Shown: in pieces, positions 2,133 through 32,265 of the stretch
Position numbering within the stretch: position 1 is the stretch's first letter
Layout of the letters: each line of letters opens with the position of its first letter
NCBI RefSeq assembly: GCF_000242595.2
Contig: NC_017098.1
Span: 2,962,501-3,026,500 of the forward strand
Origin: Spirochaeta africana DSM 8902
GTDB taxonomy: Bacteria; Spirochaetota; Spirochaetia; DSM-27196; DSM-8902
Direction of reading: 5' to 3'
DNA: 64,000 nucleotides
Made by a program: the position numbers and the translations under genes
The notes under the pieces: model-generated
Databases searched by the model: none
Told to the model about the DNA's origin: nothing
The model's input: only the letters and a program-made list of their open reading frames with translations

Positions 2133-2909
2133 TTACCGGGAAAATTCAAGCTCATGCGTACGGAATAATCGCGGATACCAGACATCCCCTTGAACAGCAT
2201 CCTGCCGGAACCCCGGAAAGGCAGGGACGCCCCCGTCAAACGCCTGGGAGGATTCTGCCACAAAACTGCCGGCATCATCCATCCGGCCGGACTCCAGCAG
2301 CACCGGCAGTGCTACCTGGCGGCGCAGGAGCACCGCCCAGGGCGACACCCTGGAGACGCCCCACTCTACCCGCAGGGCTTCTCCAGGCAGTCGGACCAGC
2401 CGGGCATCCAGCTCCCTTCCGCGTCGATCCAGTACGCTTACCTCCAGCACCATATACTCCGCCGAGATCTGCAGCGGCTGGACCTGCAGTACCGCCGGCA
2501 GCGGCGCAAGGGGTGAATGCAGGCCCGAGAAAAACAGCAATCCAGCCGCAGCTGCAGTCGCGACGCTCAGAACAGGCAGCCCGGCTACCAGAGGGAACCG
2601 GACCAGGAGAACACCTGCCAGCAGTGCGCCCCCCAGCACTGCCGGGGCAGCCGCGTCTCGCAGTACCTCCGGTTCGCCCAGCAGACCAAGCACGCTGCAC
2701 AACAGGGCCAACGATGCACACAAAGCGGCCAGGCTGCGCCGCAAGGACTGAACCTTTCGACGTCGCTGGCCGGTCACCGGCAGCGGCAGCATGCCACGCA
2801 TGCGCGGAGGAACCGGCAGCAGCAGACGCAAAACCCAACCGCCGGCTGCCCCAAGGAGCACCCCTGCCGTCAGAAACCAGACTGCTGAACTGCCGGCAAT
2901 CGTAATCAC
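2133..2909 (-). CDS. Predicted membrane protein of unknown function
   Basis: A 258-residue protein with about four hydrophobic segments in the first 140 residues (near 5-30, 60-78, 88-108 and 110-128) and a soluble C-terminal part. The basic loop after the first segment (RRRKVQSLRR) suggests a cytoplasmic location there. It begins with GTG, overlapping the stop of the carboxypeptidase gene (GTGA), so the operon link is strong. I do not recognise the family and assign no function. Confidence 0.7.
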   Translation of the reverse strand: MITIAGSSAVWFLTAGVLLGAAGGWVLRLLLPVPPRMRGMLPLPVTGQRRRKVQSLRRSLAALCASLALLCSVLGLLGEPEVLRDAAAPAVLGGALLAGVLLVRFPLVAGLPVLSVATAAAAGLLFFSGLHSPLAPLPAVLQVQPLQISAEYMVLEVSVLDRRGRELDARLVRLPGEALRVEWGVSRVSPWAVLLRRQVALPVLLESGRMDDAGSFVAESSQAFDGGVPAFPGFRQDAVQGDVWYPRLFRTHELEFSR

Positions 2910-4429
2910 AGCCCGTAGATCTCCCCGTACTTCTGCTGCAGATAATCAACAAACGGCTGTGCCTGCAGCTCCTGCCCGGTTATGTCATGCAGCAGCTCGG
3001 CCGGGGTTTTGCACAGACCATGGACATGGATACTGCCTCGCAGCCAGTCCAGAATCCGGGTGAACTCCCCGCCGCGAATCAACGGGTCCAGCGAGCCCAG
3101 CTTGGCCTCCATGGCAGCAGTGAACTGGGCACCGTAGAGGTTGCCCAGGGCATAGGTCGGAAAATACCCGATCGCACCGTGAGACCAGTGCACATCCTGC
3201 AGCACCCCGTCGCGGTCGTCCGATGGCACGATCCCCAGGAACTCCTGCATACGGCTGTTCCAGGCCGCCGGCAGATCCTGCACAGCCAGATCACCGGTAA
3301 CCAGCTGCTTCTCGATCTCGTAGCGCAGGATCACATGCAAGCCATAGGTAACCTCATCGGCCTCGACGCGAATCAGCGAGGGCTGCACATTATTGATACC
3401 GCGATAAAACTCCTCGAGCTCAACATCCGCCAGCTGCTCTGGAAACACCTCCTGCAAATCGCCATAGTAGCGCTGCCAGAAGGCCCGACTGCGTCCGACA
3501 AGGTTTTCCCAGAAACGGGACTGCGATTCATGAATACCCAGGGAGGTTCCGCCGGCAACCCCGGTGTTTTTGATCTCATCGGCAAAACCCAGCTCATACA
3601 GGGCATGCCCGGCTTCGTGAATCGTGCCAAACAGCGCCGTGGGGAGATAGTTCTCCTCGTAGCGGGTGGTGATTCGCACATCGTCACTCGACAGGTCGAT
3701 GGTAAACGGGTGTGCGGACGTGGTCAGATAGCCGCGGGAAAAGTCGTACCCCAGCTCGGCAGCGATGCGGCGACTGAAACCCTCCTGCTTGTCGGCAGGA
3801 TAACTGCGGGTCAGGAAGTCTGTTCGCACCTGCGGCTGCGCTGCAATACGCTGAACCAGGGCGACCAGTTTTTCCCGCATCTCCCCGAACACCCGATCCA
3901 GGGTTTTGACCGTCATCCCCTGCTCGAACCGATCCAGCAGGGCATCGTAGGGATGGTCGGCATACCCCAGATACTCTGCAGTCTTGCGGTTCAGTTCAAC
4001 AATCTTCTCCAGATGCGGTGCATATGAGGCAAAATCGTTGTTGGCCCGCGCCTCGGCCCAGGCATGATTGGCAAGGCTGGTTACCCGGCTCTCCTCCTCG
4101 ACATGGGCCTTGGGAAGCTTTACATCCTGATCATAGGATCGTTTGGCCGCCCGCACCCGGCGCCAGTCCAGATCCTCAAGGCTGTCAACCGGAATGCCGC
4201 CGAAGGTCAGAATATCCAGCAGCTCGCCGATGCGGGGCTGGGTTGCGGTGTCGTGAATGAGCCCGCTCAGGTATGACAGCTGCTCGGCACGCTGCGGTAC
4301 CCCGCCCGAAGGGATCTGGGTTTCCAGATCCCAGTGCAGCAGGCTGGAAATCTGACCCAGCTTGACCGTCTCGGCATCGATAGCCGCCAGCTCGGCGAGG
4401 GCAGCCTTGATCTGTTCATGCTCACTCAT
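2906..4429 (-). CDS. Metallocarboxypeptidase, M32 (Taq) family
   Basis: A 507-residue cytoplasmic enzyme of the length usual for carboxypeptidase Taq. It carries the zinc site HEAGH near residue 270 and, about 30 residues on, the M32 signature [14 protein letters not shown], whose glutamate completes the metal site. M32 enzymes remove residues from peptide C-termini and are usually part of peptide recycling. The ATG overlaps the thrS stop (ATGA at 4426-4429), so the gene is co-transcribed with thrS and would share its T-box control. Confidence 0.93.
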
Positions 4430-6243
4430 AGTTCCTGATCCTTTATTTCGATTTTATGTACAACCTGCTCGCTCCAGTCATCCAGCGGCAAGCCGTTTTC
4501 CTGCTTGCCGCCGTACTTGCGTACCGAAACCGCATGCTCCTGCTGCTCCCTCTCACCCACAATCAAAGCATAGGGGATTTTACGTGTCTGTGCACTGCGG
4601 ATCTTGGCATTCAGGCGATCATCAGAGAGGTCAACCTCGACCCGCATCCCCTTGGCCTGCAGCTCGCGCTGCACCTGAGCGGCATAGTCGAAGAACGGCC
4701 CGGCCACCGGAATAACAACCGCCTGCACCGGCGCCAGCCATACCGGGAATGCCCCGGCGTAGTGCTCTATCAGAATACCGATAAATCGCTCCAGCGACCC
4801 CAGCACCGCGCGATGCAGGATAACCGGGGTATGACGGTGACCATCCTCCCCAATGTAACCGGCATCCAGTCGCTCCTTGCTGGGCAGCTGATAGTCAACC
4901 TGAATGGTGCCGCACTGCCAGTGGCGACCCAGGGCATCGACCAGGGTAAACTCCAGCTTGGGGCCGTAAAACGCCCCCTCGCCTGGCGCCAGCTCGTACT
5001 CGAGTCCGGCTGCGTCGCAGGCAGAGGAGAGAGCCGCCTCGGCTCGATCCCAGGTGGCGTCATCCCCGACACGGACATCCGGTCGGGTGGAGAACTTTAC
5101 GATGATGTTCTTGTCGGTAAAGCCGAACGCGGCATACATCCGCTTGAGCAGCTGCACAAACAGGGTTACCTCGCCGGAAATCTGCTCCTCGGTACAGAAG
5201 ATATGCGCATCGTCCTGCACAAAGCCGCGCACCCGCATAATCCCGTGCAGGGCCCCCGACTGCTCGTTGCGGGTGCAGCTGCCGAACTCGGCCATACGCA
5301 GCGGCAGATCACGGTACGACTTGAGCCCCTGCTTGAAGATCTCGATGTGTCCCGGGCAGTTCATGGGTTTGAGAGCAAACAACCGCTTTTCGCTCTCGGT
5401 AATAAACATGTGCTCCTGGTACTTGGCCCAGTGACCGGATCGTTCCCACAGCCCGCGCGGCATTACCGAGGGGGTATTCACCTCCTGATAGTTCTGCTCG
5501 AACACACTCTGGCGCACAAACTCCTGCAGGGTCCGGTAGATGGTCCAGCCGTTATGGTGCCAGAATATCTGCCCCGGATTGTCCGGCTCGAAATGGAACA
5601 GGTCAAGCTCCCGCCCCAGGCGGCGATGATCCCGCTTCTCCACCTCTTTCAAGTGTTCCAGGTACTGCCGCAGCTCCTTGCCGGTCAGAAATGCCGCCCC
5701 GTAGATACGGGTGAGCATCGGGCGTTTCTCGTCGCCGCGCCAGTAGGCGCCGGCTACCGACATCAGTTTGAATCCCTTGAAATCGATCTGTCGGGAGTTC
5801 TCGACATGGTTCCCCATACACAGGTCCACGAAGCCGTCCTGCTCGTAGAAGCTGATCGGTTCGCTTTCGGACAGATCCTCCAGCAGCTCCTCTTTATAGG
5901 GCTTTCCCTTCAGCAGCTGCCGCGCCTCGGCCTTGGGAACCTCGTACCCGCGAAAATCCACCTGGCTTTTCACGATCTCGCGCATGCGCTCCTCGATTGC
6001 CGGCAGGTCCTCCTCTTTAAGGGGTTCCGGCAGGTCGAAATCGTAGTAAAACCCGGTACTGATCGCCGGGCCTATTGCCAGCTGGGCAGAGGGGTATTTC
6101 TCCAGCACGGCCTGGGCCATAATGTGCGACAGCGAATGCCGCACCTTGTAGAGTTTTTCCTCAGGCTCCAGTTCCTTCCATGGCTTGCCCGGAGGATCAA
6201 CCCGGTCCTGCTTGTTCTTGATGCTTTCCAGTGTTGCTGCCAT
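4426..6243 (-). CDS. thrS: Threonyl-tRNA synthetase
   Basis: Charges tRNA-Thr in the cytoplasm. From the ATG at 6243 the protein has 605 residues. The N-terminal TGS domain (about 60 residues) is absent: only a 34-residue tail precedes the editing domain, which starts at HSLSH (residues 37-41) and continues to the CMGNHVEN segment. The class II catalytic core is intact (NCPGHIEIF, the motif 2 region ending [12 protein letters not shown], and [11 protein letters not shown]), followed by the anticodon-binding domain. An upstream in-frame ATG at 6369 would lie inside the T-box terminator. The 6243 start has AAGGAGGG 6 bases away and is clearly preferred. First gene of a four-gene operon. Confidence 0.96.
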
Positions 6244-6351
6244 ACAGCCCTCCTTGTGTACTTGCTCCGTATGTCCGTCTACCGGCCAATAACCGCTGGC
6301 CACTTCCCGACGCGAATCTCTCTGCTGCGCCAACAATCTCTGTTGCGCCAA

Positions 6352-6425
6352 TAAAAAGAGCCCTTGCACATTCTCCCGCCTGCCCGATCACGCCGGACAG
6401 ACAAGGACGAACACGCAAGAGCTCT
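6352..6425 (-). terminator. Regulated terminator inside the thrS T-box leader
   Basis: AGAGCTCTTGC (6415-6425) pairs with GCAAGGGCTCT (6357-6367) across a long loop and is followed by TTTTT (6353-6357). It begins just after the T-box sequence, as expected for the alternative to the antiterminator. Confidence 0.8.
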
Positions 6426-6737
6426 CGCTCAGGTTGCGTACCGCGGTACCACCTTGTTTCGCTCTGCTTTTTGTCATGGTTCCGGGATTCGCCCGACACC
6501 GGCAAGCAGTGCGCACCTCTTTCCCGTTATCGGACGGATTACCGGCGGAAACTACTGACCCTGCAGCCAGCCCCGTTGGGCGGCGGCGTCCAGGCAAGCC
6601 GGCCCGGACGACTGCAGCGGCGTTGGAACCGCAGCTCCGGAGGGGTTTTCTCCACGGCGGCATCGGGAACCTTCCAGCCAGGGGCTCCCTCTCTCGTGAT
6701 CCGTTTCGCGGGTACTCGTCTCCATCTTCGCTCTGGC
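6352..6737 (-). promoter_or_regulatory. T-box riboswitch of thrS
   Basis: The leader of thrS has the conserved T-box antiterminator sequence AAGGTGGTACCGCGG (6441-6455, minus strand). An AGTA motif and GAGAGAGGGAGC/GGCTGGAAGG elements lie further upstream, where Stem I belongs. A candidate specifier ACC (threonine) is at 6644-6646, in the context GGAGAAAACCCCTCC. A terminator follows: an 11-base arm (6415-6425), a distal arm (6357-6367, with one G-U pair) and five Ts. Uncharged tRNA-Thr is expected to stabilise the antiterminator and let transcription reach thrS and the operon. The T-box core is seen directly; the specifier assignment is my reading of the loop. Confidence 0.9.
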
Positions 6738-6741
6738 GGTA

Positions 6742-6770
6742 ATGGTGGGGAATTTGCACCCGGTTGTCAA
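6742..6770 (-). promoter_or_regulatory. thrS operon promoter
   Basis: TTGACA (6765-6770), a 17-base spacer and CACCAT (6742-6747) predict a start near 6735, just before T-box Stem I. The leader to the thrS ATG is about 490 bases. Confidence 0.6.
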
Positions 6771-6856
6771 GATGCATCGCGGCTGTCTGTCGGCCGGGAC
6801 ACCGGGCAATCAACGCCGAAGCAGACACCCTGGTACGGCTGTGGTATTCTGTCTGT

Positions 6857-7486
6857 ATGAAGAGCAAAACGCGGATTATGCCGCTGGCCGCGGATCAGAT
6901 CGATACCTGTACAGATGTTTTACTGGAAGCCTTCCGGAACGAGGCCTTTACCCGCTACTGGCTCGATCTTTCGGTCCAGCTGCAACGCATACGCTATCGC
7001 CGGGCTGCACGGCTGAAATTCCTGCTGCAGCACAAAGCAGGGATGCCGATTCTGGTTGCCGTGTGCAACAATCAGGCCGCCGGGGTGATATGCCTGAGGC
7101 CTCCAGGGTTCAAGTTCGGACCCTCGCGCATAGCTGAACTCATCCTGAACATTCCATCGCTGCTCCCGCTGCTCCCCGGGATGCTCCGTGCCCGCCCCAT
7201 TGCATCGGCTGTCAAGCCGCCTGGCGATCTCCCCGCACCCCACTGGGTGCTGGAGGCCATCGCGGTTGCCCCGCAGTGGCAAGGGCATGGCATAGGACGC
7301 GCCCTGCTTGAACAGGCGATATCCTTGTGTGAACAGGACAGCTCGGCTACCGGGATGTATCTGTTCACTGGCGATGAGCCTAATCGGCGCATCTACGAGC
7401 GGTTCGGTTTCGAGCTGCTTGAGCAGCGCGAAACCAATGGATTCACGTCATACCATATGTTCCGTCAAAACACCCCCGCTCACTGA
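6857..7486 (+). CDS. GNAT-family N-acetyltransferase
   Basis: A 209-residue protein. The acetyl-CoA binding motif A lies near residues 134-155: AIAVAPQWQGHGIGRALL, with the Q/RxxGxG/A core. It is followed by YLFTGDEPNRRIYERFGFE, typical of the C-terminal GNAT strand and helix. The acceptor is unknown. The gene is divergent from thrS. I chose the ATG at 6857 because a TATTCT box (6845-6850) sits 6 bases before it, the leaderless spacing seen across the window. The -35 match (CAGACA, 6822-6827) is weak. An upstream in-frame start at 6764 would place coding sequence over the thrS promoter. Confidence 0.85.
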   Translation: MKSKTRIMPLAADQIDTCTDVLLEAFRNEAFTRYWLDLSVQLQRIRYRRAARLKFLLQHKAGMPILVAVCNNQAAGVICLRPPGFKFGPSRIAELILNIPSLLPLLPGMLRARPIASAVKPPGDLPAPHWVLEAIAVAPQWQGHGIGRALLEQAISLCEQDSSATGMYLFTGDEPNRRIYERFGFELLEQRETNGFTSYHMFRQNTPAH

Positions 7487-25716: not shown

Positions 25717-28700
25717 TCAGCGCACTACCATTACCCGCCGGTACTCATCGATACCTGGCGCTACCACCCGGACAAAGTAGATCCCACGGGCCACAGGTCG
25801 CCCGCCCATGTTGGTACCATCCCAGGTCACCGTATGCCTTCCGGTCCCTTGCGGCCCACGATGCAGCACCCGGATCAGATCGCCTGCCAGATTAAATACC
25901 TGAATGGTCACATTGCCCGGATCCTCCAACCGATACTGCAGAATAGTGTTCTCGCCGCGATCAGGATTGATAACATTGTTCAGAATAGTTACCCCGGCCC
26001 GCTGCTCTACCGGACGTCGCAAGCCAACACTCCAGGGAGCCAGGGCAAGATAATCAGACTCATCCAGAAGTCGGGCAGCAAACAGGTGCCCAACACCGAA
26101 CACGAAACTGAGCTCTGTACTGGATGCCATCTCCTCATCATTGAGGCGAAAGCTATGCAACTGCCCATTGCGTGCAAATGGCGCCTGGCTGCGGGCCCCC
26201 AGCAGCGGAAAATCGGTCAAACCCGGCTGCACCACCGGGAGCCAAAGCTGACTGCGACTGCCGTACCGACGATTTGCCGGTGCGTCCAGCGCCCAATACA
26301 GCATTACCGGTAATTCATTGGACACACCCTCAGCCAGCTGCGACTGCAGGGTAATCCGCTCCGGAGCCATCGTCTCGCTGCCGTCAAACACCGTTACCGC
26401 CGGGGTGCGGGTGTCCGGCTCGATCTCGCGGATACGATCTACGGCATACACCGGCTCGATTACCCCAATACCAATATCGGTGATTCGCTTGTAGCGATCT
26501 TCCAGCATGGCATTTTCCACCAGATCAACAACCTGACCAGGCTGCGCCGATATCTGTAACTCGAACAATTCCCCGGCCTCGACCTCCCGACCAAGATCAA
26601 GATATACATCCCAGATACTATCAACCAGGTCAGAATCCGGCGGACCAGTCCGCACAATCTCTATACTCACTGGGGTTTCCAGTACGGCGTCTACCGGCGC
26701 TCCATCGATCCTGCTCAGAAGAAAATCATCAGCCTCAAGGGGCCTGCGAACTTCACCGTCATACCCGAACACCGGCTCACTAAACCGCAAGAAAACCCGG
26801 TCACTGCCTGCCGGCAATATTGCCAGGGAGATTCGCGGCGGCGTCCGCTCAATCGCCCGCATTCGCTCAATACCATCCGGCATACGCAGCAGATTACCGG
26901 CCAGATCGGTAATCCTGGCCTTGCTTTCGTCGTAGCTTACCCAGAGTTCAGTAACCAGCCCCCAGGGATGCCCGGACGGAGTAATATTGAGGCGAAAATA
27001 CGAATCATCTGCAACCTCGATTGCATTATCACCAAACAGGGTGTTGGTGACAGCAGTTGTAAAATCTATATTCACATCATTACGCAGCGGGGTAATCTCA
27101 TACTCCTCGATACTGAATGCCAGGAATTCATCAGTACCATCCGGTTTCCAGATCGAGTTCCAGCTGGTATCCCGAATACCTTCATGTGGCCGCTGGTTCG
27201 GATGATTCTCCTGCGGGTTCCAGAGCGTTTGAGAATTATCCAGAATATGGAATTCGAGCCCATCAACCAGGTTGGTAGTTTCATCGGCGGTCGCAACGAT
27301 CTCGAAGAAGGAGCCATCAGCATCTTCGCCATCACCAGTATACACGGCAAAGGCAGGGGGGTCGACGTCCCAGCCTTCGAGCTCTTCCGCATGCGCAGGT
27401 TCCCCTTGCGGAAGCTGTGCATCCGCAATGCCAGGCAAAAGTGACTCCAGATCAAAACTGTTAGCCGCTGTCACAAAGCGAATCTCCAGCGGGAAACGAT
27501 CATAATTTTCGTCATCGGTTGCAATAATTTCATTGCCAGCTGCATCGGTAATCCGAGAATTTCCAATAGTGCTTACCGGTTGCCCGACCGGGTCGGATAG
27601 TTCTTCCAGATATCCCAGCCAGTGCCAGCGCCCGTCATCCTCCTGACTCCACCCTGCAATCGAGATTGTAACCCCATGATCTCCAGAGGGATTCATGGGT
27701 GCAGCGCGGTACAGGCTGTTTATGGTGGCGCTGCCGTCTCTGCTGCCCCCATGGAAAACCTCGCTATATCTAAAATACCCCGTGACCTCCACATCGGTAT
27801 CACTGTTCGGGATATGACCGCCCCACTCGCCAGCGCCAAAACTTTCCTGGGCGCGAAAATTTTCTGCCGGCGTACCGGCTCCAATTGCAAATGCGGCATT
27901 TTCGCCAATATTAACCGGCTCCGAGTACCGCAGGTGAAAATAATTCCGACCGTCCCAAGGCTGTTCAGTTGCTTGGTCCGGATCAAACCGGTGGTGAGGG
28001 GCACGCATGGCAACTACAGCAACAAGGATGGGCGCGGCCTCGTCAGTAGTACCGTTGAACACATCAAACCCATTGTTGTTATAATTGCGCACCGCAGTAC
28101 GACCACCAGCCGAGCGCAAAACTCCCTTCAGCATTGAGATGTCAGGAATAGTTTCGCGATGTTCAGGTTCTGCGCCCGGACGACCACGGTCGGTACTGCC
28201 AGGATTCACTGGCCCATCACCAGTCGCGTCGGTATTCCAGCGGTACTCCGGGTTGCTGCCATCGTAGTTAACCTGCAGGTACAGCACAAGCAGCTCGTCG
28301 GCATCTTCATCGTAGTCCGATGAGTCCGGGTCAAGATTGCCCGACAGCGTCCCGTTGGCCTCCAGAGTGGTGAATACTCCCGAGAAGGCTCTTTCGCCAC
28401 CATGCACTGACAATTGGCTTATTTGTTGCCAGATCTCATCGTTGAAGTTGGCGATTGGCTGGGTAAAGGTAACGCGAATCACGTCATCATACACCGTCTC
28501 GGCGCTGGCGATATGGGGGCGTCCAAAATTCCAACCATCGCTAGTTTGCTGGCCATATGTCGGGCTGAGGGGATCATCATTCCATGCATAAAGGGTGTTG
28601 TTGCCACCGTTGGTTACCCGATGGTTATCTTCGTTTTCAGCGTTTACATCGTCCCTTACAACCGCAGCAGCGATCACACCACCGCTGGCCTGTGAGCGAC

Positions 28701-31700
28701 TGACTTGCGAGGAAAACACAACACTGTATGGCAAGCCCCATGGATACGCAGGGTCGTCCAAAAAATTGGCGGCGCTGTTGTCTTGTACTGTCAGAAACCA
28801 ATCACCGGTTCCGACTAGGTCAGCCCCGTTTACGTAGAGATTGGCACCGACAATCAAGCTGGCGCCGGCAAGGTCATCGAAAACCGCCCAGTTGGCGGCA
28901 GGTAACAGACCAAAAGTTGCGGTTGCCTCGGTGTACCCAAGTCCACCAGGATGATAGACCAGTGTGTTGGCGTCGGGATAAGCAAAATATATGTTGCCCG
29001 GGCTGTCGGGATTCCTGTCGGCATCGTTTGGGTTATAACTTTCGCCAAAAACCACCAGATCGCTTACGGTTTCGATGGTGCGTCCCGCCAGATTATCCAT
29101 GGTTCCCCGGTAAAAAACCAGCCGATTGACAAGCAGGTTGCGCTGCAGACTTATGGCGGATCCTGGCGCATCGATGTAGAGATCCTGATGCTGCAGATCC
29201 AGTGTGGCTGGTGTGCCGTTCAGGCTTGCTGCACCGAGGAGGCGGACATGACCCAAGGCCTGGTTGGCACCAGTGGCACCATCCAGCATCACATTACCAG
29301 TGCCGGCGTTAATGGTTAACACACGTTCATTGCTAAAATCATCTGCGTTGATAGTACTGTAAAAATGTATTTCTCCATCTGCAGATTCAACAGCCACGTC
29401 TCTTTCAAGGATTACTGGACTGCGAAAGCGAATATTGCCTCCACCACTGAAAATGCTGTTGGCTGCATCTGAGATATGTATTCCTGCATCAGCGCGAATA
29501 TCAACTGCTCCGTCGTTTGTAGAGACGCCATTTGTCAGGTTCACGCTACCTATTGTCAAAGAAATTGTATCACTGTTGCGATACTCCACACCCTGACCAG
29601 CTCCAGTTAAATTTATTGCAAGCGTTGCAACTTCATTGTCGTCTCTGCTTAGAGTATACGAACCAGCCCCAAGTAGCTCGAGAGAGGCAGCAATTATTGC
29701 ACCGGTTTGCGTCACTGAATTGGAGCAGCTGAGTACCAGGGTGTCGTTGGCATCCACCCCCGCCAGTACAATCGCAGCGGTGCGACTGACAGTTACATCA
29801 GCGCCAGTCAGATCCATCGCTCCGGTGGTAGAGCCAGCTTGATTCAAGATGATATTATTTGTGCCGGCATCCAGGGTTACCGTACCTGTAACATCCCAGT
29901 CACCGCCGTCGGTTATATCATCATTCTCGGTAATCGAAACATCAGCTCCGGTTACCGTTAAGGCACCAAACACATTCCCTGCATTGATCAGCGTGATATT
30001 GTTCGCTCCGGCATCCAGTGTGGTCGCACCAGCGCTTATTGCTGCACTTTGAGTAATGTCGCCTCCGGCGGTTGCACTAAACGCTCCCCCGATTGTCGAG
30101 GCAGCAAATGCTATTGCACTATCATTGTCTATCGTCGCATTGCCAGTACCATGCGTACTCAGTGCAACTATTCCACCAGTGACATTTATTTCGTCCAGCG
30201 TTATCGCTGCGTTGTTGTCATTGGTCGTTACAGTAAGTCCATTGTTAACCGTAATCATACCGCTGTCGGTAATCTCGTTCCCACTCACAAGCGTTAGACT
30301 GGTCACTGCTCCGCCACCAATCTCAATCGCTGCGGTGCGACTCACCGTCACATTAGCACCAGTCAGAGTCATCGCACCGGTTTCAGAGCCAGCCTGATCC
30401 AGGGTTATGTTGTTCCCGCCAGCATTCAGAGTTACTGCACCTGTCACCGCCCAGTCACCGCCGTCGGTTATATCATCATTCTCGATAATCGAAACATCAG
30501 CTCCGGTTACCGTTAAGGCACCAAACACATTCCCTGCATTGGTCAGCGTGATATTATTCGCTCCAGCATCCAGTGTGGTCGCACCAGCAGTGATTGCTGC
30601 ACTTTGCGTAATGTCGCCTCCGGCGGTTATGCTCAAAGCCCCACCAACCACCATCGCCGGCAGCTCAATCGCTGAGTTGTTAAACTCAATCGTTACGTTG
30701 TTTGTTACGTTCGCCACACTCGGTAGAGTTGCCGCATCGTTCACATTACGAAACAACAGATTCTCGATGTCTCCTGCACTCGTAGCAAAGGTCACCGCTC
30801 CATCAAAATCGTTTTCATGTGTACCCAAGTTGATATCAGAACCACCCGCCACGGTAAACACTGATGTACCCGTAACACTTACAATTCCATTTTGGGTTAT
30901 ATCACCAGCAGCAGTTGCAGCAAAATCCCCCCCGATTGTCGAGGCAGCAAAGGCTATTGCACTATCATTGTCTATCGTCGCATTGCCAGTACCATCGGTA
31001 GTAAGCGCCACTGTCCCACCAGTAACATTTATGTCATCCAAGGTAATTGGCGCGTCGTTAGCTGTTGTCGTAGCACTCAAGCCACCACTTACCGTGATTG
31101 TGCCACTGTCACTAATCGCATTCTCACTTTCAAGTGTCAGACTGGTCACTGCTCCGCCGCCAATATCTATCGCTGCTGTGCGACTTACCGTCACATCAGC
31201 ACCAGTCAGAGTCAGCGGTCCAGTATCAGAGCCAGCTTGATCCAGGGTTATATCGTTCCCGCCAGCATTCAGAGTTACTGCACCTGTCACCGCCCAGTCA
31301 CCGCCGTCGGTTATATCATCATTCTCGGTAATCGAAACAACAGCTCCGGTTACTGTTAAGGCACCAAATTCATTCCCTGCATTGGTCAGCGTGATATTAT
31401 TCGCTCCAGCATCCAGTGTGGTCGCACCAGCAGTGATTGCTGCACTTTGCGTAATGTCGCCTCCGGCGGTTATGCTCAAAGCCCCACCAACCACCATCGC
31501 CGGCAGCTCAATCGCTGAGTTGTTAAACTCAATCGTTACGTTGTTTGTTACGTTCGCCACACTCGGTAGAGTTGCCGCATCGTTCACATTACGAAACAAC
31601 AGATTCTCGATGTCTCCTGCACTCGTAGCAAAGGTCACCGCTCCATCAAAATCGTTTGCCTCTGTACCCAAGTTGATACCAGAACCACCCGCCACGGTAA

Positions 31701-32265
31701 ATACTGATGTACCAGTAACATTTACAATTCCGCTTTGGGTAACGTTCCCACCAGCGCTCACATCCAGATTACCGCTGACCGTTGATGCTCCCAGTATTAT
31801 CGCATTGGTATCTACCAGCGTCACATTGTTGGCGTCAGAGATTACTACCGTGCCAAAATCGTTGTCTACGTTATCAAGCGTAACATCAGTAACAGGCACA
31901 TTTATGGTTAAGGTATTAGAAATCAATGCTTGATCGGTAAGATTAAACGCTGTTCTAATAGTAAATTCGTCCGCATTTATTGGATCAACGATGGTGACTT
32001 CTGCTGGAGAGTTCACTATTGTTTCGATAACAATATTTGCCCCATTTGGCGGGAATCCTCCCTCCCAGTTTGAGTCATTGGTCCACACATCATCAGCGGT
32101 ACCTCGCCATATATGCGTCTGCCCCCAGACCCCCGCCGGAAGCAGAACAATCAGCCCAATCAATACCACCAGAACAACGCGGTGCTGTGCTACACGAGAG
32201 TCTTTGAGGATCTTCGCCTCGCATCGAGATGAGTTGAGCAGGGTGTTTCGGAGGTGTAGCTTCAC
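25717..32265 (-). CDS. Giant repetitive exported surface protein (2182 residues) with a C-terminal FlgD-type Ig domain
   Basis: The signal peptide ends near residue 50 (LLPAGVWGQ). Residues 55-900 are a repetitive beta-strand region rich in Asn, Thr, Gly, Ala and Asp, with units like ITQSAAITAGATTLDAG and TLTGADVTVSRTAAI. It most resembles the beta-helix of large adhesins. It contains two almost identical 281-residue tandem repeats plus a shortened third. Residues 1100-2100 hold Ig-like blocks (for example RVTFTQPIANFNDE). The last 80 residues match the FlgD-like Ig module also used as a secretion or anchoring tail (YRLEDPGNVTIQVFNLAGD...RGIYFVRVVAP). Starts with GTG, AAGGAG 5 bases upstream. 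Base composition looks lower in GC than the neighbours. Confidence 0.85.
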   Translation of the reverse strand: MKLHLRNTLLNSSRCEAKILKDSRVAQHRVVLVVLIGLIVLLPAGVWGQTHIWRGTADDVWTNDSNWEGGFPPNGANIVIETIVNSPAEVTIVDPINADEFTIRTAFNLTDQALISNTLTINVPVTDVTLDNVDNDFGTVVISDANNVTLVDTNAIILGASTVSGNLDVSAGGNVTQSGIVNVTGTSVFTVAGGSGINLGTEANDFDGAVTFATSAGDIENLLFRNVNDAATLPSVANVTNNVTIEFNNSAIELPAMVVGGALSITAGGDITQSAAITAGATTLDAGANNITLTNAGNEFGALTVTGAVVSITENDDITDGGDWAVTGAVTLNAGGNDITLDQAGSDTGPLTLTGADVTVSRTAAIDIGGGAVTSLTLESENAISDSGTITVSGGLSATTTANDAPITLDDINVTGGTVALTTDGTGNATIDNDSAIAFAASTIGGDFAATAAGDITQNGIVSVTGTSVFTVAGGSDINLGTHENDFDGAVTFATSAGDIENLLFRNVNDAATLPSVANVTNNVTIEFNNSAIELPAMVVGGALSITAGGDITQSAAITAGATTLDAGANNITLTNAGNVFGALTVTGADVSIIENDDITDGGDWAVTGAVTLNAGGNNITLDQAGSETGAMTLTGANVTVSRTAAIEIGGGAVTSLTLVSGNEITDSGMITVNNGLTVTTNDNNAAITLDEINVTGGIVALSTHGTGNATIDNDSAIAFAASTIGGAFSATAGGDITQSAAISAGATTLDAGANNITLINAGNVFGALTVTGADVSITENDDITDGGDWDVTGTVTLDAGTNNIILNQAGSTTGAMDLTGADVTVSRTAAIVLAGVDANDTLVLSCSNSVTQTGAIIAASLELLGAGSYTLSRDDNEVATLAINLTGAGQGVEYRNSDTISLTIGSVNLTNGVSTNDGAVDIRADAGIHISDAANSIFSGGGNIRFRSPVILERDVAVESADGEIHFYSTINADDFSNERVLTINAGTGNVMLDGATGANQALGHVRLLGAASLNGTPATLDLQHQDLYIDAPGSAISLQRNLLVNRLVFYRGTMDNLAGRTIETVSDLVVFGESYNPNDADRNPDSPGNIYFAYPDANTLVYHPGGLGYTEATATFGLLPAANWAVFDDLAGASLIVGANLYVNGADLVGTGDWFLTVQDNSAANFLDDPAYPWGLPYSVVFSSQVSRSQASGGVIAAAVVRDDVNAENEDNHRVTNGGNNTLYAWNDDPLSPTYGQQTSDGWNFGRPHIASAETVYDDVIRVTFTQPIANFNDEIWQQISQLSVHGGERAFSGVFTTLEANGTLSGNLDPDSSDYDEDADELLVLYLQVNYDGSNPEYRWNTDATGDGPVNPGSTDRGRPGAEPEHRETIPDISMLKGVLRSAGGRTAVRNYNNNGFDVFNGTTDEAAPILVAVVAMRAPHHRFDPDQATEQPWDGRNYFHLRYSEPVNIGENAAFAIGAGTPAENFRAQESFGAGEWGGHIPNSDTDVEVTGYFRYSEVFHGGSRDGSATINSLYRAAPMNPSGDHGVTISIAGWSQEDDGRWHWLGYLEELSDPVGQPVSTIGNSRITDAAGNEIIATDDENYDRFPLEIRFVTAANSFDLESLLPGIADAQLPQGEPAHAEELEGWDVDPPAFAVYTGDGEDADGSFFEIVATADETTNLVDGLEFHILDNSQTLWNPQENHPNQRPHEGIRDTSWNSIWKPDGTDEFLAFSIEEYEITPLRNDVNIDFTTAVTNTLFGDNAIEVADDSYFRLNITPSGHPWGLVTELWVSYDESKARITDLAGNLLRMPDGIERMRAIERTPPRISLAILPAGSDRVFLRFSEPVFGYDGEVRRPLEADDFLLSRIDGAPVDAVLETPVSIEIVRTGPPDSDLVDSIWDVYLDLGREVEAGELFELQISAQPGQVVDLVENAMLEDRYKRITDIGIGVIEPVYAVDRIREIEPDTRTPAVTVFDGSETMAPERITLQSQLAEGVSNELPVMLYWALDAPANRRYGSRSQLWLPVVQPGLTDFPLLGARSQAPFARNGQLHSFRLNDEEMASSTELSFVFGVGHLFAARLLDESDYLALAPWSVGLRRPVEQRAGVTILNNVINPDRGENTILQYRLEDPGNVTIQVFNLAGDLIRVLHRGPQGTGRHTVTWDGTNMGGRPVARGIYFVRVVAPGIDEYRRVMVVR
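29770..30068 (-). repeat. Partial third copy of the long internal repeat
   Basis: This block repeats the ITQSAA-to-SRTAAI section of the long repeat. It is displaced 555 bases from copy 2 rather than 843, so 288 bases (96 codons) are absent in frame. It is less well conserved than the two full copies. Confidence 0.7.
30061..30903 (-). repeat. Long tandem repeat, copy 2 (843 bases)
   Basis: This matches copy 1 at an offset of exactly 843 bases (281 codons). The stretch 30500-30840 is nearly base-for-base the same as 31343-31683, including silent positions, which points to recent duplication or gene conversion. Confidence 0.88.
30904..31746 (-). repeat. Long tandem repeat, copy 1 (843 bases)
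   Basis: First full repeat of the giant protein, starting near residue 174 (NVTQSGIVNVTG). Boundaries are set by the 843-base period and are approximate. Confidence 0.85.

Follow-up and report, generated by a model that had tools for sequence, protein, structure and literature searches.

A putative class I T-box leader of thrS in Spirochaeta africana belongs to a leader lineage spread through the class Spirochaetia

The thrS gene of Spirochaeta africana DSM 8902 raises the question of whether its expression is controlled by a T-box riboswitch and, if so, how such an element came to stand in a spirochaete. T-boxes have been described as restricted to Firmicutes, Actinobacteria, Chloroflexi, Deinococcus/Thermus and Geobacter (PMC3766115), and the survey of Wels 2008 covered six spirochaete genomes and counted zero T-boxes (PMC2494555). 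Our literature search found no paper linking the T-box riboswitch with Spirochaetota; the member lists of TBDB and Rfam may contain single entries. The window analysed here, a stretch of 64,000 nucleotides, had been ascribed to a probable spirochaete by a sequence-only reading made without knowledge of the host. This ascription was correct. Indeed, the host carries three genes for FlaA (periplasmic flagellar sheath), a family that none of the 14 control genomes contains, and has a relative in the same order, Salinispira pacifica (genome G200), whose closest relative is S. africana (PMC4511686). The window also holds one open frame, on the minus strand (25717-32265), that runs to 2182 codons.

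Directly upstream of thrS, on the minus strand between 6737 and 6353, we found the full set of parts of a class I (transcriptional) T-box leader (Table 1). The T-box core, the Stem I motifs, the ACC specifier and the terminator, all announced earlier from the letters alone, were present. The covariance search with the Rfam T-box model RF00230, chosen beforehand as the check, matched positions 6737-6400 of the minus strand to the model end to end (1-219) at 58.4 bits, with an E-value of 5.6e-12 computed for 901 bases and 4227 families. This score lies below the curated gathering cut-off of the family (93 bits), and an Rfam scan at that cut-off returned no T-box match at the thrS leader; a default scan would therefore wrongly have dismissed the T-box. 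When the whole genome (3,285,855 bp) was searched, the thrS leader was its sole T-box.

Table 1. Features of the thrS locus (positions in the window)
Feature	Position	Strand	Basis
TTGACA, −35-like hexamer	6765-6770	-	located in sequence, judged by eye
CACCAT, weak −10-like, 17 nt past TTGACA	6747-6742	-	judged by eye
Stem I (anticodon-reading domain)	6632-6734	-	RF00230 alignment, own model R1, covariation
Stem I specifier-loop 5' strand GACGAGUA	6720-6713	-	RF00230 alignment
Stem I AG-rich bulge	6695-6684	-	RF00230 alignment
Stem I distal loop	6681-6671	-	RF00230 alignment
Specifier ACC (threonine; tRNA-Thr GGU), in loop GAAAACCC (6650-6643)	6646-6644	-	RF00230 alignment
Linker, Stem II / IIA/B-like region, with CGAUAA F-box-like motif	6515-6631	-	RF00230 alignment
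Stem III region with flanking purines	6463-6514	-	RF00230 alignment
T-box core CAAGGTGGTACCGCGG	6456-6441	-	
Antiterminator	6401-6457	-	de novo fold and RF00230
7-nt T-box bulge UGGUACC, would pair with tRNA 3' end	6451-6445	-	de novo fold
Intrinsic terminator: hairpin 6426-6356, U tract TTTTT 6357-6353	6353-6426	-	
Shine-Dalgarno AAGGAGG, 5 nt ahead of ATG	6249-6255	-	sequence
thrS, threonyl-tRNA synthetase, 605 aa, type A lineage	4426-6243	-	Pfam and tree
M32 carboxypeptidase, overlaps thrS stop by ATGA	2906-4429	-	PF02074, E 1e-184

The identity of the specifier follows from the Rfam consensus, which puts the codon after GAA plus one base (GAA-a-UUC-a); the host specifier loop reads GAA-A-ACC-C in the RF00230 alignment, and the cognate tRNA-Thr(GGU) is encoded in the genome. 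Folded alone, the antiterminator took the canonical shape of a helix A1, the 7-nt bulge and a helix A2. The terminator reached −45.5 kcal/mol (z −6.6), and none of 200 shuffles was equally stable. The 3' strand of the antiterminator is part of the 5' arm of the terminator, which makes the two structures mutually exclusive. The Stem II linker is weakly resolved and carries a lineage-specific insertion, 76 bases long in the RF00230 alignment; the Stem II and IIA/B pseudoknot is an optional element of the T-box family. Transcription would begin just ahead of Stem I, from the TTGACA hexamer with its poor −10. A scan of the leader for consensus promoters and terminators listed none, because it permits loops of 3-8 only and because the −10 is weak. 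A long plus-strand open reading frame that spans the leader (6231-6860) was discounted, as it runs antisense to a conserved RNA. Just past the terminator, the 5' untranslated region of thrS (minus strand, 6351-6318) contains two copies of a 15-nt direct repeat, TTGGCGCA(A/G)CAGAGA, and a possible small hairpin (CAACA-GAGAU-UGUUG); these may be fortuitous or may serve a second control at the post-transcriptional level.

The pairing of Stem I was followed across the class with our own model, R1, built from 33 Stem I sequences. The host Stem I reached 94.4 bits against R1 (E 6.6e-23), a model that includes the host sequence. Over the 33 leaders, 90.8% of the cells were paired, compared with 65.7% in shuffled and 36-48% in slid alignments, and two-sided changes were present in 14 of the 18 pairs, amounting to 163 two-sided cells where shuffles gave 52. 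RNAalifold recovered Stem I unaided from this alignment; the T-box shape of Stem I was absent when the host sequence was folded singly (z −0.8). The parts of the leader, their mutual exclusivity, the agreement between codon and gene and the class-wide compensatory changes in Stem I are established computationally.

The leader is almost certainly a class I T-box riboswitch by which the charge of tRNA-Thr controls the transcription of thrS and, via read-through, of the M32 gene behind it. For tRNA binding, charge sensing and antitermination we rely on the known T-box mechanism. When threonine is short, uncharged tRNA-Thr(GGU) would make two contacts, its anticodon pairing with the ACC of Stem I and its unoccupied CCA end with the UGG of the T-box bulge; this second pairing would hold the antiterminator, so that the terminator is blocked and thrS is transcribed. 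A charged tRNA would be unable to stabilise the antiterminator, and the long terminator hairpin would then stop transcription ahead of thrS. The leader is real, well conserved and, as far as its letters tell, ordinary in its mechanism; the surprise lies in its host range. It has in common with thrS leaders of the Bacillus subtilis type a Stem I with a codon-like specifier, an AG bulge and a distal loop, a Stem III, a T-box bulge, an antiterminator opposed to a terminator, and the cognate synthetase downstream. However, it differs from them in its phylum, its low score against the family model, its long Stem II linker, a U in the variable position of its UGGN motif opposite U73 of the tRNA, and in being, as is normal for the spirochaete leaders, the only T-box of its genome. 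The class II (translational) T-boxes of Actinobacteria, found on ileS, also sense tRNA, but they act by hiding the ribosome site, without a terminator, and their Stem I is mostly short, whereas the spirochaete leader places a strong intrinsic terminator about 100 nt ahead of the ribosome site.

We then asked whether the leader is the unusual, isolated gain by transfer that had been proposed for it. The RF00230 search found T-boxes in 72 of the 393 genomes of the phylum, mostly one each; 71 of these 72 genomes belong to the host's class, and in the host's order 16 of 46 genomes carry one. The cut-off of 93 bits was exceeded in 25 of the 72, about two thirds being missed by it. Matches to the R1 model were spread over about 30 families, in 175 of 395 class genomes; the position ahead of thrS was checked individually for the 73 leaders described next, and a few of the other matches are T-boxes of other genes. 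About 88 T-box loci found with RF00230 were read. In 73 of them, all from different genomes, the T-box stands ahead of thrS, and the specifier is ACC in every one. The thrS leaders of Salinispira pacifica and of genomes G252 and G349 share GAGACGAGUA and GAAAACC(C/A)CU with that of the host, in addition to the specifier and the target; they vary in the type of threonyl-tRNA synthetase (ThrRS), A or B, in the last base of UGGN (A, U or G) and in the presence of M32 downstream. Judged from these comparisons, the host leader is a member of a thrS-leader lineage spread through the class Spirochaetia. The proposal of an isolated gain is not borne out by a T-box found in about 30 families and, given this spread, any transfer into the spirochaetes would be old. 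A recent single transfer of a T-box-thrS cassette from Firmicutes, where T-boxes are commonest (PMC2494555, PMC3766115), is scarcely credible: the leader type is common to all these families, and the nearest ThrRS from outside the spirochaetes was from Pseudomonadota and not from Firmicutes among the matches listed (79 of 80 kept, comprising only stretches that match the search patterns).

T-boxes of other genes were seen as well. Four of them (L157, L161, L142 and L090; family f13, G226 and G383) have a specifier that reads ATC (Ile) or GTC (Val) and precede a gene for a large protein with helix-turn-helix, cupin and AMP-binding (acyl-CoA synthetase-like) domains, as identified by Pfam for L157; this target is unusual and may connect an acyl-activating enzyme with Ile/Val tRNA. 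Three in family f11 (L082, L084 and L085), with a specifier read as TAC (Tyr), lie upstream of a sodium:solute symporter, perhaps a tyrosine-controlled transporter. Further T-boxes precede an ABC substrate-binding lipoprotein that is TrpX-like (L129 in G392, specifier TGG), a trpB-like gene (L138 in G173) and a beta-eliminating lyase of the tryptophanase/tyrosine phenol-lyase kind (L086 in G297).

The acceptor end of the tRNA introduces a difficulty. The pair between the variable base N of UGGN and the tRNA discriminator is Watson-Crick in the majority of T-boxes, with G:U allowed, which is a tendency with exceptions and not a strict criterion (TBDB, PMC7778990). The discriminator of tRNA-Thr(GGU) was U73 in all 26 class genomes in which it was read, the host included, and the CGU and UGU isoacceptors of the host also have U73. 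The host leader, with U at N, departs from the expected Watson-Crick or wobble pair. Over the 73 thrS leaders, UGGU occurred 36 times, UGGA 27 times, UGGG 7 times and UGGC once, with N unread in the remaining 2; where both partners were read (26 genomes), the combination was U:U in 14, including the host, A:U in 11 and G:U in 1. In half of the leaders, therefore, only UGG:CCA can pair. Covariation between N and the discriminator was not seen in these 26 genomes, since the discriminator never varies. One might take the U opposite U73, together with 58 bits where the cut-off is 93, as marks of a decayed T-box, a relic that no longer responds to tRNA and whose terminator merely lowers thrS expression. 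We regard this as very improbable. Stem I, the specifier loop, the bulge and the terminator are all intact, and the ACC and the core are invariant across very divergent leaders. Moreover, UGGU is at least as common as UGGA among the 73 leaders, so the mismatch is no mark of one decaying copy. Lost elements, for their part, leave no trace: at 41 thrS loci of T-box-less genomes the R1 model gave no convincing match (best E 0.25). As a conjecture on the origin of the mismatch, the T-box might have come from an A73 lineage and might be in the course of re-tuning.

The enzyme encoded beneath the leader has a history of its own. The thrS product carries the Pfam domains tRNA-synt_2b, HGTP_anticodon and tRNA_SAD, and the ThrRS tree of the class falls into two supported lineages, A (the host, Salinispira and most of families f6, f9 and f11) and B (most others), both of which are found under T-boxes. 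An origin of type A in Pseudomonadota is beyond the reach of this tree, in which the central branch has a support of 34 and other phyla are unsampled. Family f2 holds both types: three genomes with ThrRS A and one, G252, with B. A single f2 clade of ThrRS was rejected (delta lnL 325, p-AU 6e-69), the G252 enzyme grouping with the type B of other families and not with that of its own order. The M32 genes of f2, in contrast, form one clade (99/98) with G252 nested inside, and its exclusion was rejected (p-AU 7e-4); genes further downstream of M32 are also common to G252 and its f2 relatives. The leader of G252 scores best against that of Salinispira pacifica, with 207 of 282 aligned bases identical (73%). 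These results are most simply explained by an exchange of thrS alone, at least once, between a retained leader and a retained M32 gene. Both ThrRS types sitting behind the same leader and ahead of M32 could also be explained if early spirochaetes had kept the two behind one leader and each lineage had lost one copy, with no gene exchange. This history seems unlikely, as it requires many parallel losses, as no genome with both types was present among the matches listed, and as the G252 enzyme sides with other families.

The gene behind thrS had been predicted to encode an M32 carboxypeptidase; Pfam confirmed it, and the overlap of 4 nt makes co-transcription of the two genes likely. Its suggested role as an arm that recycles threonine found no specific support. 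M32 enzymes have no particular specificity for threonine. Many spirochaete families keep thrS and M32 together, with and without a T-box, and the linkage persists in the T-box-less families f3, f60, f62 and f5; conversely, no M32 gene was seen adjoining the T-box-thrS unit in families f7, f9, f10 and f14. M32 is a conserved operon partner; its presence does not argue for threonine recycling. The host also encodes homoserine dehydrogenase, which makes threonine biosynthesis plausible; this biosynthesis is not under T-box control.

Taking the leader, the tRNA and the enzyme together, we tentatively propose, at somewhat less than even chances, that the spirochaetes have their own long-standing, thrS-only T-box lineage, in which three acceptor-end pairs (UGG:CCA) would suffice, U:U would be tolerated and the leader would act as a fixed landing site for exchanged ThrRS genes. 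The known range of this riboswitch is extended by its presence in diderm bacteria, class-wide and usually with a single target; most of its spirochaete members are hidden by the Rfam cut-off. The exchange of thrS gives a clean example of one enzyme replaced by another while the riboswitch ahead of it is conserved and, with natural UGGU, UGGA and UGGG variants facing one constant tRNA end, the spirochaete leaders would provide a test of the importance of the discriminator pair.
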